Positions 4,147 through 10,000 of a DNA stretch of 10,000 nucleotides are shown here, piece after piece; positions within the stretch are counted from its first letter, which is position 1, and the number at the start of each line of letters is the position of its first letter. The DNA is from Magnetospirillum sp. (GTDB lineage: Bacteria; Pseudomonadota; Alphaproteobacteria; Rhodospirillales; Magnetospirillaceae): positions 1 through 10,000 of the forward strand of contig JAIWOG010000093.1 in the NCBI GenBank assembly GCA_020217035.1, in the 5' to 3' direction. The position numbers and the translations under genes are program-made. Below the pieces are notes generated by a model that saw nothing but the letters and a program-made list of their open reading frames with translations, searched no databases and was not told where the DNA came from.

Positions 4147-4172
4147 ACTGGCCCGGCTATTGCCGGGTCAGT
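4147..4172. terminator. Hairpin terminator between convergent ppk2 and the PYP-like gene
   Basis: An 11-bp stem with one G-U pair (ACTGGCCCGGC / GCCGGGTCAGT) encloses a TATT loop. On the plus strand it begins 17 bp after the ppk2 stop and is followed by TTCTTG. On the minus strand it overlaps the TAG stop of the PYP-like gene and is followed, nine bases on, by a TTTTTCTTTATTT tract. It is a plausible bidirectional intrinsic terminator. Confidence 0.6.
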
Positions 4173-4537
4173 TTCTTGATGAAGACCCAATAGGTTCCCA
4201 AAATGGGGCTGGTCTTCAAGTGGATGCGCACCTTGTAAGCCAAACCGGCAACGGCGCAGTCGAAGACCACGTTCATGCCACTCTCGGCCACCCCGGTGTC
4301 GAAATGGCGCCTCACCAAGCTGACCCCGGCCCACGGCGCCACGTGCTGGAAGAAGGCCCGCCCCACCCGGCAGCCATGGCTGCTCGCTTCGCCCCCTGGT
4401 TCGGTGTCGATATAGTTGACGACAATCCCCGCCTTGTCCAATTCCGCCGCCCCGAAAGGCAGTTGGGAAATCTCGGCGACGGTAAGCGATGCCAGGGGAT
4501 TCTCAGGATCGTCCGCCGCAAATGCGAGAACGGTCAT
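4157..4537 (-). CDS. Photoactive-yellow-protein-like PAS protein lacking the chromophore cysteine
   Basis: This small single PAS-domain protein (126 residues from this start; PYP is 125) aligns, by eye and from memory, with Halorhodospira halophila PYP. There are no gaps through residue 99, then a two-residue deletion. Shared features include Phe6, Glu12-Asn13, Phe28-Gly29-Ala30, Leu33-Asp34, Tyr42, Glu46, the Phe-Phe-x-x-Val-Ala-Pro segment at 62-68, FxxGVA, KVxxHxK and the C-terminal YWVF. In PYP, Tyr42 and Glu46 hydrogen-bond the p-coumaric acid bound to Cys69. Here position 69 is Trp (TGG at 4333-4331), position 50 Glu and position 52 Ser, so covalent chromophore attachment as in PYP is impossible. 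It may be a blind or repurposed PYP. ATG 4573 (138 residues) and GTG 4636 are alternative starts; 4537 matches the PYP N-terminus. It is divergent from a chemotaxis operon. Confidence 0.8.
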   Translation of the reverse strand: MTVLAFAADDPENPLASLTVAEISQLPFGAAELDKAGIVVNYIDTEPGGEASSHGCRVGRAFFQHVAPWAGVSLVRRHFDTGVAESGMNVVFDCAVAGLAYKVRIHLKTSPILGTYWVFIKKLTRQ

Positions 4538-4659
4538 GTTCCAAGGTCCGGCATGTGTGGTGACTGTTGGCATGACTTGTTCTTTTAGCCCTATTCCCAA
4601 GCCGGAAATTTGCCGTATTATCCCGCATCGGTCCACAGGGAAAACACGGCCCCACCCAT
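4538..4659. promoter_or_regulatory. Divergent intergenic region with a weak promoter core
   Basis: This stretch separates the PYP-like gene from the chemotaxis operon and must hold promoters for both. TATTAT at 4616-4621 is one base from a sigma-70 -10 hexamer on the plus strand and lies about 39 bp before the STAS ATG. TTCCCA at 4594-4599 would be a poor -35 at 16-bp spacing. The overlapping GATAAT on the minus strand could serve the PYP-like gene. I see no clear sigma-28 flagellar promoter or operator. Confidence 0.25.
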
Positions 4660-4968
4660 ATGGAAATCAATGAGCAAAATGGAAGATTGGTGATTGAACT
4701 GCCGGCTGTGCTTGATTTGCCGGCCGCCGCCGAGCTTCGCGACTTGCTGATCGACGCCGCCGCCCGCGATACTTCCCTAGATGTTGTGCTTAACTTTACG
4801 AATTTAGAGAGATTATCAACCGCGGGAATACAGGTCGTCCTGGCCGGCATCGCCGCCCTGAGGTCCGCGGCTCGCCGCCTGGTTGCGGAAAATGTCAATG
4901 ACACCACCATTTCCTCTTTCCGCGCACTTGGTCTTTCTGCCCAGCTTACCCATCTGCTCGATACCTGA
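4660..4968 (+). CDS. STAS-domain protein, first gene of the chemotaxis operon
   Basis: This 102-residue protein consists of one STAS domain (the anti-sigma-factor antagonist / sulfate transporter fold). The N-terminal strand IELPAVLDLPAAAELRDLL, the strand DVVLNFTNLERLSTAGIQVVLAG and the C-terminal FRALGLSAQLTHLL helix are typical. Ser53-Thr54 occupy the place where SpoIIAA-type proteins carry their phosphorylated serine. Small STAS proteins of this type recur at the head of chemotaxis operons in alphaproteobacteria, though their function there is not well established. Its stop is 14 bp before the cheY start, so the two are almost certainly co-transcribed. It lacks a strong ribosome binding site, and parts around 4770-4830 use more AT-rich codons than the neighbours. 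CheX or CheC activity is unlikely given the fold. Confidence 0.85.
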   Translation: MEINEQNGRLVIELPAVLDLPAAAELRDLLIDAAARDTSLDVVLNFTNLERLSTAGIQVVLAGIAALRSAARRLVAENVNDTTISSFRALGLSAQLTHLLDT

Positions 4969-4982
4969 CCCGAGGATAACCC

Positions 4983-5348
4983 ATGGCAAAATGCGTCCTG
5001 GCCGTCGATGATTCCAAGACCATGCGTGACATGGTCTCGTTCACCTTGCGCGGGGCCGGATACACGGTTCTGGAGGCCGAACACGGCGTGGCGGCACTCA
5101 AAGTGCTGCAAGGCCAAAAGGTCGACGTGATCATCACCGACGTGAACATGCCCGAAATGGATGGCATCACCCTGGTTCGCAAGGTCCGTGGGCTGCCCAG
5201 CCACGCTGGGACGCCGGTGTTGATCCTGACCACCGAAAGCGACCAAAGCAAAAAGGATGAAGGCCGCGCCGCCGGCGCCACCGGCTGGATCGTCAAGCCG
5301 TTCAGTCCTGACAAGCTGCTGCAGATTGTTGCCAAGGTCTGCCCGTAA
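4983..5348 (+). CDS. cheY: CheY-type single-domain response regulator
   Basis: This 121-residue stand-alone receiver domain is predicted to take phosphate from CheA and bind the flagellar switch. The acidic pocket is Asp9-Asp10, the phosphoacceptor is Asp53 (TDVNMPEMDG), the switch Thr is Thr83 and the conserved Lys is Lys105 (KPF). The position of E. coli CheY Tyr106 is Trp102 here. No output domain is attached. GAGG at 4972-4975, seven bases before the ATG, is a good ribosome binding site. The gene lies between the STAS gene and cheA, which makes it the cognate partner of this CheA. It could instead act as a phosphate sink if other CheY proteins exist in the genome. Confidence 0.95.
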   Translation: MAKCVLAVDDSKTMRDMVSFTLRGAGYTVLEAEHGVAALKVLQGQKVDVIITDVNMPEMDGITLVRKVRGLPSHAGTPVLILTTESDQSKKDEGRAAGATGWIVKPFSPDKLLQIVAKVCP

Positions 5349-5383
5349 CCTGGTTGAGGTCTGCGTGAGGGAGCGAGGGTGAT

Positions 5384-7519
5384 ATGACCGACGACCAAGG
5401 CTATGACCTGTCTCAGTTCAAGGCGACCTATTTCGAGGAATGCGCCGAACTGCTGGCCACGGCCGAGGAAACCATCGCCCGGTTGCAAGAAGGCCAAGGA
5501 ACCGACGAAGACCTGAACGCGGTTTTCCGCTGCGTCCATTCCATCAAGGGCGGCGCCGGCGCCTTCGCCTTCGACGACCTGGTGCACTTCGCCCACGTCT
5601 TCGAAACCGCGCTCGACCATCTGCGCTCGGGCCGGGCGGAACTGACACCTCATGTCGCCGACTTGATGGTCCGCGGCAACGACATCCTGGGGGATTTCGT
5701 CCGCGCCGCTCAGGCGGAAACCGCCCTGCCCGCCGACCACGGGGCCGACATCCTGGCCCAGTTGTCGGCTTTGACCGGCGCCAAGCCGACCATGGCTGCA
5801 CCCGCCCCAACCGCGTCCGCGATGGCGACGACGCCCACGCCGCCGGCGTTTTCCACCTTCCGCATCCGATTCGTTCCCAGCCCGGACATGCTGCGTACCG
5901 GCAATGACCCGCTGCTGATGCTCCGCGAACTGGCGGGACTGGGGGAACTGGAGGTGGTCGTCGATACCGGCAAGCTTCCGTCCTTGACCGAGATGGACGC
6001 CTTGGCGTCCTATCTGTCTTGGACCTGCACCCTGACCACCGGCAAGGGCCGCGCCGCCATCGACGAGGTTTTCGAATTCGTGGCCGGCGACACCGCCCAG
6101 ATCGACATCGAAGAATTGAACGACCTTCCCGGTGACGAGGAAGGCGACGGCTGGGGGTTGTTCGCCCCCCTGCCCTCGGCCAACGCGTCCCAGGACGAGG
6201 AAGGCGATGGCTGGGGCCTGTTCGGCGATGCCCCCGGAAACAATGCTGCCGCGGCGTCGTCCGTGACCACGCCCGTGGCCAAAGCCCATGCGGTCAGCAC
6301 GCAACAGGCGTCGCCGTCGCAAGGCGGCGCCGTCCACACCGCTTCCATCCGCGTCGACCTGGACAAGATCGACCGCCTGGTCAACATGGTGGGCGAACTG
6401 GTGATCACCCAGGCCATGCTGGGCCAACAGGCCAGCGGCTTCACGGTGGAATCCCATCCCGAACTGATCCAGGGCCTGCAAGAACTGTCCCACCACACAC
6501 GGGAATTGCAGGAAAGCGTCATGGCGATCCGGGCCCAACCGGTCAAGGCCCTGTTCTCGAAGGCGCCAAGGCTGGTCCGCGACCTGTCGAGCAAGCTGAA
6601 CAAGCAGGCGCGGCTGGTGATGAGCGGCGAGAACACCGAGGTGGACAAGACCGTCATCGAACAATTGTCCGATCCGCTGACCCATCTTATCCGCAACGCC
6701 TTGGACCACGGCCTGGAAACGCCCGAAGAACGCATGGCGGTGGGCAAGCCGGCCGAAGGCACCATCCATCTGGCCGCCGAACACCGATCCGGGCGCATCT
6801 TCATCGAGATCCAGGATGACGGGCGCGGCATCGACCGCCAGCGCGTCCTGGCCAAGGCCATGGAAAAGGGGCTGGTCGAGCCCGGTCAGCAACTGACCGA
6901 CGAACAGATCGACATGCTGATCTTCGCCCCAGGCTTCTCCACCGCCTCGGAAGTCTCGGACGTTTCGGGCCGAGGCGTCGGCATGGACGTGGTGCGCAAG
7001 AACATCCAGGATGTCGGCGGCCGCGTGGTGGTGCAATCGACGCCTGGTGCCGGATCGCGATTCATCCTGTCCCTGCCGCTGACCTTGGCGGTGATGGACG
7101 GCATGCTGATTCAAGTTGGCGGCCAGCGCTATGTCCTGCCGCTGACCAACATCGTCGAATCGCTGCGCCCGTCGCCCCAGCAGGCCCGCTCGCTGGTGGA
7201 CGTCGGCAACGTGCTGACCATCCGCGGCGAATACATCAACCTGCTGGCCCTTCACGCCATCTTCGGCATTCCCGGCGCCATCACCGACCCCACCAAGGGG
7301 CTGGTGGTGATCGTCGAGACCGAAGGCGGCGAGCGCGTCGGCCTGCTGGTGGACGAATTGCTGGGACAGCAGCAAGTGGTGATCAAATCCTTGGATTCCA
7401 ACTTCCGGCCGATCCACGGCATTTCCGCCGCCACCATCCTGGGCGATGGCAGGGTGGCGCTGATCCTGGACGTCAGCGCCCTGCGACAAATGGGGGCGGT
7501 GGCCAACGCTGCCCAGTAA
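5384..7519 (+). CDS. cheA: Chemotaxis histidine kinase CheA
   Basis: This 711-residue cytoplasmic kinase is predicted to form the core signalling complex with CheW and receptors and to phosphorylate CheY. Domains in order are: P1/Hpt with phospho-His52 (HSIKGGAG), residues 1-110; an Ala/Pro-rich linker; a P2-like domain starting FRIRFVPSP near 158 and ending near 245; an acidic linker with two DEEGDGWGLF copies at 251-260 and 271-280; P3 dimerisation helices near 318-385; the P4 ATPase; and a P5 CheW-like domain from about 570. P4 shows an N box with Asn438 (HLIRNALDHG), G1 DDGRG at 478-482, an F box with FAPGFSTA at 514-521, and G2 SGRGVGM at 528-534. All catalytic boxes look intact. GAGGG at 5375-5379 is the ribosome binding site. 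There is no fused receiver domain. Confidence 0.97.
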   Translation: MTDDQGYDLSQFKATYFEECAELLATAEETIARLQEGQGTDEDLNAVFRCVHSIKGGAGAFAFDDLVHFAHVFETALDHLRSGRAELTPHVADLMVRGNDILGDFVRAAQAETALPADHGADILAQLSALTGAKPTMAAPAPTASAMATTPTPPAFSTFRIRFVPSPDMLRTGNDPLLMLRELAGLGELEVVVDTGKLPSLTEMDALASYLSWTCTLTTGKGRAAIDEVFEFVAGDTAQIDIEELNDLPGDEEGDGWGLFAPLPSANASQDEEGDGWGLFGDAPGNNAAAASSVTTPVAKAHAVSTQQASPSQGGAVHTASIRVDLDKIDRLVNMVGELVITQAMLGQQASGFTVESHPELIQGLQELSHHTRELQESVMAIRAQPVKALFSKAPRLVRDLSSKLNKQARLVMSGENTEVDKTVIEQLSDPLTHLIRNALDHGLETPEERMAVGKPAEGTIHLAAEHRSGRIFIEIQDDGRGIDRQRVLAKAMEKGLVEPGQQLTDEQIDMLIFAPGFSTASEVSDVSGRGVGMDVVRKNIQDVGGRVVVQSTPGAGSRFILSLPLTLAVMDGMLIQVGGQRYVLPLTNIVESLRPSPQQARSLVDVGNVLTIRGEYINLLALHAIFGIPGAITDPTKGLVVIVETEGGERVGLLVDELLGQQQVVIKSLDSNFRPIHGISAATILGDGRVALILDVSALRQMGAVANAAQ
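6134..6223 (+). repeat. Duplicated DEEGDGWGLF-coding motif in the CheA linker
   Basis: Two 30-bp units (6134-6163 and 6194-6223), exactly 60 bp apart, encode the identical ten residues. They differ at only a few synonymous positions. They fall between the P2-like and P3 domains. Conserved acidic plus aromatic residues in an otherwise loose linker suggest a short binding motif present twice rather than chance low complexity. Confidence 0.75.
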
Positions 7520-7589: not shown

Positions 7590-8078
7590 ATGCAGAACGC
7601 CGCCCCCCCCGCCGAAACCCAGACTGGCAGCAGCCGCCAGTTCATCTCGTTCACCATCGGTGACGAGGAATACGGCGTCGACATCATGGCGATCCGCGAG
7701 ATCAAGGGGTGGACCGCCACCACCGAATTGCCCAACACCCCCGAATACATGCGGGGCGTGATCAACCTGCGCGGCGCAATCGTCCCCATCTTCGACCTGC
7801 GGGCTCGCTTTTCCGGCGGCCGAACCCAGGCTTCGCCCCGCCACGTGATCATCGTGGTGTCGGTCCATGACCGGGTCATCGGCATCCTGGTGGACGCCGT
7901 CGCCGACATCATCACCATCACTACTGCCGACATCCAGCCGGTGCCGGAATTGGACCACCACGTTCATTCAGGGTTCCTGACCGGTCTGGTCACCGTCGAC
8001 GGGCGCATGGTCGCCCTGCTTGACCTGCACCAGCTTTTCGACAGCGAACTCATCGCCGACGCCACCGCCGCCGCGTGA
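7590..8078 (+). CDS. cheW: Chemotaxis coupling protein CheW
   Basis: This 162-residue single CheW domain is predicted to link receptors to CheA at the membrane arrays. Typical segments are QFISFTIGDEEYGVDIMAIREIKGW near residue 11, TELPNTPEYMRGVINLRGAIVPIFDLRARF near 45, VHDRVIGILVDAVADI, and the C-terminal GLVTVDGRMVALLDLHQLF. The NLRG segment is the conserved part of the receptor/CheA interface. Length is ordinary for the family, with a short Ala/Thr-rich tail at each end. AAGGGA at 7578-7583, six bases before the ATG, fixes the start. It lies 70 bp after cheA and 19 bp before the receptor gene, consistent with one operon. Confidence 0.96.
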   Translation: MQNAAPPAETQTGSSRQFISFTIGDEEYGVDIMAIREIKGWTATTELPNTPEYMRGVINLRGAIVPIFDLRARFSGGRTQASPRHVIIVVSVHDRVIGILVDAVADIITITTADIQPVPELDHHVHSGFLTGLVTVDGRMVALLDLHQLFDSELIADATAAA

Positions 8079-8097: not shown

Positions 8098-10000
8098 ATG
8101 TCGACCAAGTCTTCCGGCCTGACCGTCAAGGGCCGCATCTACGGCGGCTTCTTGCTGATTTTAGCTTTCCTGGCCGCTGTCGCCGGGGTCAGCTTCTTCG
8201 GCTTTTCCTCGGCGGAAAAGGGCACAAACGACCTGGCTTTCGTCTCGAGCGCCACGTTGCGCGTCTCGCAGATCGAGCGCGAGGTGGTGGGCCTGCGCCG
8301 CAACGCCTTCATCTATGCCCAAAAGGGCGACAAGAAGGCGCTGGACCGCATCCGCGAAGTGGAACCGCAACTGCGCAAGAACCTGAAGGACGCCATCGCG
8401 GTGACCGTCAGCGCCGAACGCAAGGCCAATCTGGAACGCATGCTTCAGTTGTTCGAGCAATACATGAACAACCTGAACCGCGCCGTCGAGCAGAAAAACC
8501 GCCGTGACGAGGTTTACACCACCCGCCTGGTCCCCATAGCCAACGAGCTGACCAAGACCTTGTCTAGCTTGCTGGACGCCACCTTGGCGACCCGTGACCT
8601 GGAAACCGCAGGGCTTGCCGGCAAGGCCCAGGAACAGATGCTGCTGATGCGCATCCAGGCTCTGCGCTTCGTCGACAACCCGAACCAAGCGGTGATCGAC
8701 ACCTACAAGGACCAGTACGCCGTCGCCTCGCGCTTCATCAAGACTCTGTCCGACAACGAACAGGACGCCGAACACCGCAAGTCCATCGACTTCGTCCGTG
8801 ACAATCTGCCCAATTACGACCGGCTGTTCCTGGAAATGGCCCAGTACACCATGCAGGTCGACACCTTGGTGAACAAGGAAAACGCTGCCCTAGCCACCGA
8901 ATTCGCCGAGTTGGCCGCCAAGACCAAGGCGTCGCAATTGGAATATCTGGCGGAATTGGAGAAGCAGACCCTGGCCACCGTCAGCACCCAGAAGCTGATC
9001 GGCACAGTGGCCTCTATCGTCGCCATCGGCCTGGGCCTGTTGTTCGCCTGGCTGATCGCCCGCTCGATCATCAGCCCGATCAACGCCATGACCCTTTCCA
9101 TGGGTGAACTGGCCGGCGGCAAGCTGGACGTCACCGTCCCCGCCCTGGATCGCACCGACGAAATCGGCGACATGGCCCAGGCGGTCCAGGTGTTCAAACA
9201 GAACGCCGTCGACAAGAAGCGCATGGAAGAAGAACAGCGCACCCGCGAGGAAGCCGAGCGTCAAGCCGAAGCCGCCCAACGGGCGCGTGAGGCCGCCATC
9301 GTCGCCGAAGTGGCCGAGGTCGCCAAGGCCGCGTCGGAAGGCGACCTGGATCGCCGTATCGACCTGGCCGGCAAGGACGGCTTCCTGCTGAACCTGTGCG
9401 AGGGCGTCAACAATCTGGTCAAGCTGACCGGCATCGCGCTCAACGACGTGGCCAGCGTGTTGTCGTCGGTGGCGCGCGGCGACCTGACCCAGCGCATCAC
9501 CAACAACTACGCCGGCGTCTTCGGCCAGTTGAAGTCCGACGTCAATCAGACCGCCGACAAGCTGTTCGAGATCGTCACCAACATCAACTCGGCTGCCGGT
9601 CAGATCGGCTCGGCCGCCTCCGAGGTGTCGGCCGGCGCCCAGGACCTGTCGGAACGCTCGGAGCAACAGGCCAGCGCCCTGGAGGAAACCGCCGCTTCCA
9701 TGGAGGAACTGGCCGCCACCGTGCGCCAGAACGCCGCCAACGCCCAGCAGGCCAACCAGCTGGCGGCCGGCGCCCGCGAAGTGGCCGCCGGCGGTGGCCA
9801 GGTGGTGTCCGACGCTATCGGTGCCATGGGCCGCATCGAAAGCAGCTCGCAGAAGATCGAGGACATCGTCGGCATGATCGACGAAATCGCCTTCCAGACC
9901 AATCTGCTGGCCCTGAACGCGGCGGTGGAAGCGGCCCGCGCCGGCGACGCCGGCAAGGGCTTCGCCGTGGTCGCCCAGGAAGTGCGCAACCTGGCCCAGC
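8098..10000 (+). CDS. Methyl-accepting chemotaxis protein (3' truncated by window)
   Basis: 634 residues of a transmembrane receptor are visible; the gene runs off the window at the signalling tip. A first membrane helix at about residues 14-36 ([21 protein letters not shown]) and a second at about 301-323 bound a periplasmic domain of roughly 260 mostly helical residues. That is longer than a Tar-type four-helix bundle and closer in size to a helical bimodular (HBM) domain; this is inference from length. A HAMP domain follows at 323-375, then two more HAMP-like units around 401-490 ([11 protein letters not shown] and [10 protein letters not shown]). The methyl-accepting signalling helix then leads to the tip, with [23 protein letters not shown] and [17 protein letters not shown] at 8084-8090, seven bases upstream, is a strong ribosome binding site. 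It is probably the dedicated receptor of this operon. The ligand is unknown. Confidence 0.95.

Follow-up and report, generated by a model that had tools for sequence, protein, structure and literature searches.

A tryptophan-69 derivative of photoactive yellow protein next to a chemotaxis operon in the Magnetospirillaceae

Introduction

Photoactive yellow protein (PYP) is the light-sensing prototype of the PAS superfamily. Its definition in PMC9664959 rests on Cys69, which is present in 665 of 789 homologues, the substituted ones falling into two clades and a 'PYP_like' branch. A study of 984 Cys69-containing homologues (PMC12826048) names nine residues of the p-coumarate pocket and describes Tyr94 as highly conserved. 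We analyzed 10,000 nucleotides of Magnetospirillum sp. (assembly GCA_020217035.1, contig JAIWOG010000093.1; the whole stretch is hereafter the window), which carry on the minus strand a gene (4157..4573) for a PYP-derived protein with tryptophan in place of Cys69 (the Trp69 protein, a member of what we call the W69 family). With a probability of roughly 0.55, this is a Magnetospirillaceae derivative of PYP that abandoned thioester-bound p-coumarate and whose role is now that of a small PAS-type sensor or adaptor for the neighboring chemosensory array.

The closest well-described protein, the PYP of Halorhodospira halophila (NCBIfam family TIGR02373), has the same predicted fold and about 30% identity, and both proteins have Tyr42, Glu46, Phe62, Val66, Ala67, and Trp119. 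Unlike H. halophila PYP, the Trp69 protein lacks Cys69, combines Trp69 with Cys94, has residues 97-98 deleted, scores below the equivalog cut-off of the family model, carries extra N-terminal residues predicted as strands, and comes from a genome without a detected aromatic amino-acid lyase. Cys69 has also been lost in the methylobacterial Ppr-PYPs and the 'PYP_like' branch, for which a change of function was proposed, with redox sensing as one idea (PMC9664959). The methylobacterial Ppr-PYPs are, unlike the Trp69 protein, domains of a multidomain kinase. The main-text passages of PMC9664959 name neither Trp69 nor Magnetospirillum, and the comparison of the W69 family with the 'PYP_like' branch extends to those passages alone.

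The CetB/CetA systems of Campylobacter and M. gryphiswaldense (CetBA2; PMC12442639) offer a second parallel, in which a small single-domain PAS-fold protein is encoded beside chemotaxis genes. The Trp69 protein is likewise small (138 residues), with a single domain of predicted PYP-type fold, and a che operon adjoins its gene in 23/23 loci of relatives. It differs from CetB in being of the PYP type, with no Pfam match for the window protein, and in adjoining a whole che operon rather than pairing with the gene for a single methyl-accepting chemotaxis protein (MCP); the likeness concerns gene neighborhood and predicted fold. The engineered PYP derivatives FAST and nanoFAST are also altered at residue 69 and in the stretch from residue 94 and keep Tyr42 and Glu46. 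Unlike the Trp69 protein, they are man-made, bind dyes, and carry Gly69/Trp94, the reverse of the natural Trp69/Cys94.

Links between PYPs, small PAS proteins, and chemotaxis have precedents. Some PYPs adjoin MCP genes, and PYP signaling via sensor-less MCPs has been proposed (PMC9664959). In M. gryphiswaldense, MCPs have small PAS proteins as partners (PMC12442639), and the Ppr of Rhodocista centenaria binds CheW through its kinase domain (PMC2993699). Among open-licence full texts (supplements excluded), no paper describes a Trp69 PYP in its title and the start of its abstract, and PYP is not mentioned in any passage of the transcriptome paper PMC9549626. PYP homologues without Cys69 are, in short, already published; the W69 family itself is not, as far as this search of the literature extends.

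Results

The reading frame had been described preliminarily as spanning 4157..4537 and encoding 126 residues. The frame is real and lies on the minus strand, but its start is probably the ATG at 4571-4573, 12 codons upstream, which gives a protein of 138 residues (4157..4573). This start codon aligns in 24/24 loci (24 here and below meaning the window's genome plus those of 23 relatives), and the 12 N-terminal residues that it adds, MPTVTTHAGPWN, are conserved as protein, with the motif GPW present in 24/24 loci. Residues are numbered with MTV as residues 1-3. The protein matches TIGR02373 with E=1.2e-17 and 64.2 bits; the PYP profile score, which the preliminary description had proposed as a check, is thus significant though below the equivalog cut-off of 143.05 bits, as are the matches of all 24 carrier genomes. 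Every scanned member of the W69 family (38/38) matches the same model at E<=0.001. A Pfam scan of the window's protein gave no match, and PAS_4 matches weakly in 8/38 scanned members. The best solved structures for the window protein are PYP structures (E=1.6e-13), and structure prediction, also proposed at the outset, yields a PYP fold. The alignment with PYP, first thought to be free of gaps to about residue 99, has none to residue 96 and then lacks two residues (97-98). Judged by sequence comparison, the similarity is far above chance. The Trp69 protein is PYP-derived, yet no PYP by the Cys69 definition of PMC9664959.

Codon 69 (4331..4333, minus strand; the plus strand reads CCA) is TGG in 24/24 carrier genomes. 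Among the best 120 of 132 homologues, a set that includes the window's own protein and underlies all homologue counts below, residue 69 is Trp in 113 and Cys in none. The preliminary description had named Cys in this column of orthologues, or the lack of a significant PYP-family score, as refuting its view, and neither is the case. The remaining seven carry Ile (P0064), Val (P0085), Ser (P0099 and P0114), Met (P0104), or Gly (P0106 and P0117); they occupy at least three places of the tree, and all seven keep Glu46 and Cys94. Ten pairwise comparisons of the Trp69 gene gave ratios of non-synonymous to synonymous substitution (dN/dS) of 0.08-0.20, and the gene is under purifying selection. The early proposal that this cannot be a standard, thioester-anchored PYP is supported, and so is the proposal that it does not reflect simple decay, the latter by these values, by Trp69 in 24/24 genomes, and by Glu46 in 120/120 homologues. 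In a tree of 34 W-group and 25 C-group rows, the W69 family forms one clade apart from the C69/S69 rows, with 100/100 support and on a long stem of 1.48 changes per site; seven of the W-group rows are members that lack Trp69, and two of the C-group rows have Ser69. Of the alignments, A1 comprises 38 of the 120 homologues, and A2, made for structure, the window protein plus 73.

The window protein has the features first reported for it (Trp69 encoded by TGG, Tyr42, Glu46, and the FFxxVAP segment) and keeps 6/9 published pocket residues: Tyr42 (codon TAT, 4412..4414, minus strand), Glu46 (GAA, 4400..4402, minus strand), Phe62, Val66, Ala67, and Pro68. The earlier emphasis on retained pocket residues was overstated. 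Glu46 is kept in 120 of the 120 homologues, Phe62 in 117, Tyr42 in 109, Ala67 in 104, and Val66 in 98; mostly lost are Pro68 (kept in 25), Ile31 (3), Phe96 (0), and Cys69 (0). Compared with PYP, the W69 family also has residues 97-98 deleted and Met100 replaced. Tyr94 of PYP gives way to Cys94 (TGC, 4256..4258, minus strand) in 119/120 homologues and in 24/24 genomes, and the family has no other conserved cysteine. This substitution, the upstream start, and the adjoining chemotaxis operon were all absent from the preliminary description.

In the window and in 23/23 relatives' loci (L033-L055), the Trp69 gene is divergent from genes for a STAS-domain protein and CheY. The STAS gene (4660..4968, plus strand; Pfam STAS, E=2.8e-09) comes first in the divergent operon and is followed on the same strand by cheY (4983..5348), named from sequence resemblance and syntenic in 23/23 loci. 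Next come cheA (5384..7519), identified by synteny in 21/23 loci and by Pfam domains on the L061 orthologue, and cheW (7590..8078), identified by synteny and by the Pfam CheW domain of the L061 orthologue. An MCP gene (8098..10000; Pfam HAMP and MCPsignal) continues past the window end. CheA is the next gene in 21/23 loci, and the other two stretches end before it. The STAS and CheY neighbors are still present in L055, whose Trp69-family protein is 39% identical, and in L061 the operon continues with genes for an MCP, CheR, CheD, and CheB. The operon MCP carries HAMP and signaling domains.

The far side of the Trp69 gene is variable, with PPK2 or TrmH genes in close relatives and other genes elsewhere. 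In 7/23 loci (L033, L035, L039, L042, L045, L048, and L055), an MCP gene lies to the left of the Trp69 gene and points towards it. Domains were assigned for four of these left-hand MCPs: three (L039, L042, and L048) combine protoglobin with an MCP signaling domain, and that of L055, whose frame begins near a contig end, has the signaling domain only. An 847-residue open frame (4946-7489, minus strand) runs antisense to cheA and cheY and is probably a by-product of high G+C content.

The divergent intergenic region measures 86 bases in the window and contains a 30-base element, AATTTGCCGTATTAT-N8-GGTCCAC (4607..4636, plus strand), that alignment of the 24 intergenic regions shows to be conserved in most of them; L042, L045, and L055 deviate. 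A pattern search of four genomes, allowing <=3 mismatches, found the element at the Trp69 locus in each and only one weak copy off the locus (G031, three mismatches). Within these four genomes, we thus rejected a wider regulon for it.

Within the window's family, 26/55 genomes have a match at E<=1e-5. The Trp69 gene accounts for 24 of these; in G004 and G013, the match is a C69 PYP instead. The gene is retained in many magnetospirilla and close relatives. Named carrier records (21 loci) include Magnetospirillum sulfuroxidans, M. aberrantis, M. fulvum, and M. molischianum, as well as Paramagnetospirillum marisnigri SP-1, Magnetospirillum sp. 64-120, and a Phaeospirillum sp. assembly. Wider searches covered 317 genomes of the order (E<=1e-5) and samples of 385 genomes of the class and 398 of the phylum (both E<=1e-10). 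Outside the Magnetospirillaceae they revealed no W69 protein; the 15 places found had Cys69 (13) or Ser69 (2), and a spread of W69 beyond the family was rejected. When L055, the deepest member, served as query of a protein search, only its own entry and one W69-family protein came back. Two 900-residue frames of the same class (L146 and L147) contain PYP-like domains with Ser69 and Ala46; these have lost Glu46, unlike the W69 family, which always keeps it.

At E<=1e-6, the 24 carriers show one PYP-family match apiece, never beside a C69 PYP, and the idea that the Trp69 gene is a spare copy beside a working PYP was rejected for this reason. The window's genome yields five further PYP-family matches only at E values between 0.005 and 1.5; they lie in frames 585 to 994 residues long.

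An aromatic amino-acid lyase that supplies p-coumarate is usual in PYP genomes and not strictly required. The lyase family PF00221 was found in 0/24 carrier genomes at E<=1e-20, and the window's own genome had no match at E<=1e-5 in a search that was positive in 5/14 control genomes. Only 2/55 family genomes (G013 and G032) have the lyase, and G013 is also the only family genome with a PYP above the TIGR02373 cut-off. Because G004 has a C69 PYP, albeit a weaker match, and no lyase, the missing enzyme alone is no proof of chromophore loss.

CheA proteins at least 60% identical were found in 4/31 family genomes without the Trp69 gene (G014, G015, G011, and G012; at most 36 candidates were scored per genome). 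The contigs of G011 and G012 end at the che cluster with the similar CheA. The clusters of G014 (L107) and G015 (L108), which have no Trp69 gene, have, upstream of STAS, an additional CheW and an MCP that looks soluble.

Discussion

The conserved substitutions, the purifying selection, and the constant neighborhood are consistent with an offshoot of PYP that would have given up the thioester link to p-coumarate, together with the photoreceptor chemistry known for PYP, and been kept for another signaling job. The Trp69 protein is probably a small, presumably cytoplasmic PAS sensor or adaptor for the array encoded by the divergent STAS-CheY-CheA-CheW-MCP operon, in putative physical partnership with it, and would take the part that CetB plays in a two-protein chemoreceptor. 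Its rebuilt pocket (Glu46, Tyr42, Trp69, and Cys94) could then read a small intracellular ligand or the redox state, and the signal would be handed to an MCP or a Che protein. We favor energy, redox, or oxygen taxis as the putative cue because an MCP gene lies on the far side in 7/23 loci and protoglobin is present in three of the four products analyzed.

Several observations weigh against a dedicated sensor or adaptor of this kind. The Trp69 gene is divergent from the che operon and outside it, and adjacency is not interaction. The operon MCP may have a sensory region of its own, given the 4HB_MCP_1 match in L072 that is barely above the cut-off, and a related che cluster exists in G014 and G015, both of which lack the Trp69 gene. 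Neither pocket substitution is invariant, as 7/120 homologues lack Trp69 and 1/120 lacks Cys94. As for the chromophore, cells could obtain p-coumarate from their surroundings (no search was made for the ligase), and not all of the carrier genomes are complete (range 79 to 100%).

The alternative that survives best, possible and clearly less probable than the reading above, is an adaptor without any ligand, in which Trp69 would partly fill the old pocket and the domain, binding nothing, would contribute to the array's structure or regulation. Such a plug would need neither the invariant Glu46 (120/120) nor the nearly invariant Cys94. Moreover, the side-chain volumes at 16 ligand-lining positions sum to 2151 compared to 2333 in PYP, a rough figure (the deleted residue 97 enters it as 0) that would leave room for a ligand.

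Somewhat more doubtful is a relocation of the reactive thiol, with the cysteine moved from position 69 to 94 and the aromatic residue the opposite way. Alignment suggests as much: the PYP thiol and aromatic residue seem to be swapped across one end of the pocket (Cys69/Tyr94 to Trp69/Cys94). Trp69 and Cys94 occur together in 112/120 family members, versus the C69/Y94 pair in 120/120 H. halophila-like PYPs, a contrast set (the best 120 of 1800) whose conservation is overstated because its members are 75-95% identical to H. halophila PYP. Fifteen more diverse C69 rows provide a fairer check, with Tyr (13), Phe (1), or Val (1) at residue 94 and Cys in none. Cys94 is also kept in all seven members without Trp69, and it is the sole conserved cysteine. 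In FAST, the ligand accepts a hydrogen bond from Trp94 at the end remote from Glu46 and Tyr42 (PMC8132994, PMC9287381). Under this reading, Cys94 would be a new covalent anchor for a chromophore or ligand, or a redox or electrophile switch beside Glu46. However, packing alone may account for the pattern, with a large residue at 69 and smaller ones at 31, 50, 75, 94, and 96; P0063 combines Leu94 with Trp69; and the carriers lack the aromatic lyase and have lost Phe96 and Met100. It is thus a tentative proposal, and one we would not bet on, that magnetospirilla have a rewired PYP with its thiol moved across the pocket, where Cys94 would act as anchor or redox switch by Glu46 in a dedicated soluble sensor of the che operon. 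If true, the prototype light sensor of the PAS superfamily would have been turned into a chemo- or redox-taxis receptor.

We consider it unlikely that the protein still senses light, whether with a phenolic or other chromophore held non-covalently or with Trp69 itself as the absorber of ultraviolet. Tyr42 and Glu46 are kept, FAST holds phenolic ligands non-covalently by these two residues (PMC8132994), and among the carriers are magnetospirilla, whose responses to light are a topic of PMC6532209. However, Trp69 is lost in 7/120 homologues, Phe96, residues 97-98, and Met100 are gone, the lyase is missing, and there is no independent sign of light dependence. The preliminary description had also raised a recent change or sequencing error, since a single base separates TGC and TGT from TGG; the known function does need Cys69. 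With TGG in 24/24 genomes and Cys69 in 0/120 homologues, we rejected a read error or recent local mutation and, given a dN/dS of 0.08-0.20 as well, a decaying relic, and hold all three to be scarcely credible.

The W69 family also bears on published lists of PYPs. PMC6532209 counts PYP photoreceptors in MSR-1, SP-1, BB-1, and Phaeospirillum. In SP-1, M. fulvum, M. molischianum, and the Phaeospirillum sp. assembly, the sole PYP-family match is the Trp69 protein. This protein cannot carry the known chromophore linkage; BB-1 lies outside our comparison. What was engineered in the FAST tags also has a parallel in nature, as the Trp69 protein is altered at the same positions. For the founding PYP, no downstream partner was ever identified (PMC9664959). 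Here, a PYP-fold protein is tied to one chemosensory operon, in the window and in 23/23 loci, and has relatives in Magnetospirillum, a genus with gene-deletion tools (PMC12442639), so that an interface between a PYP and the Che proteins can be sought directly.
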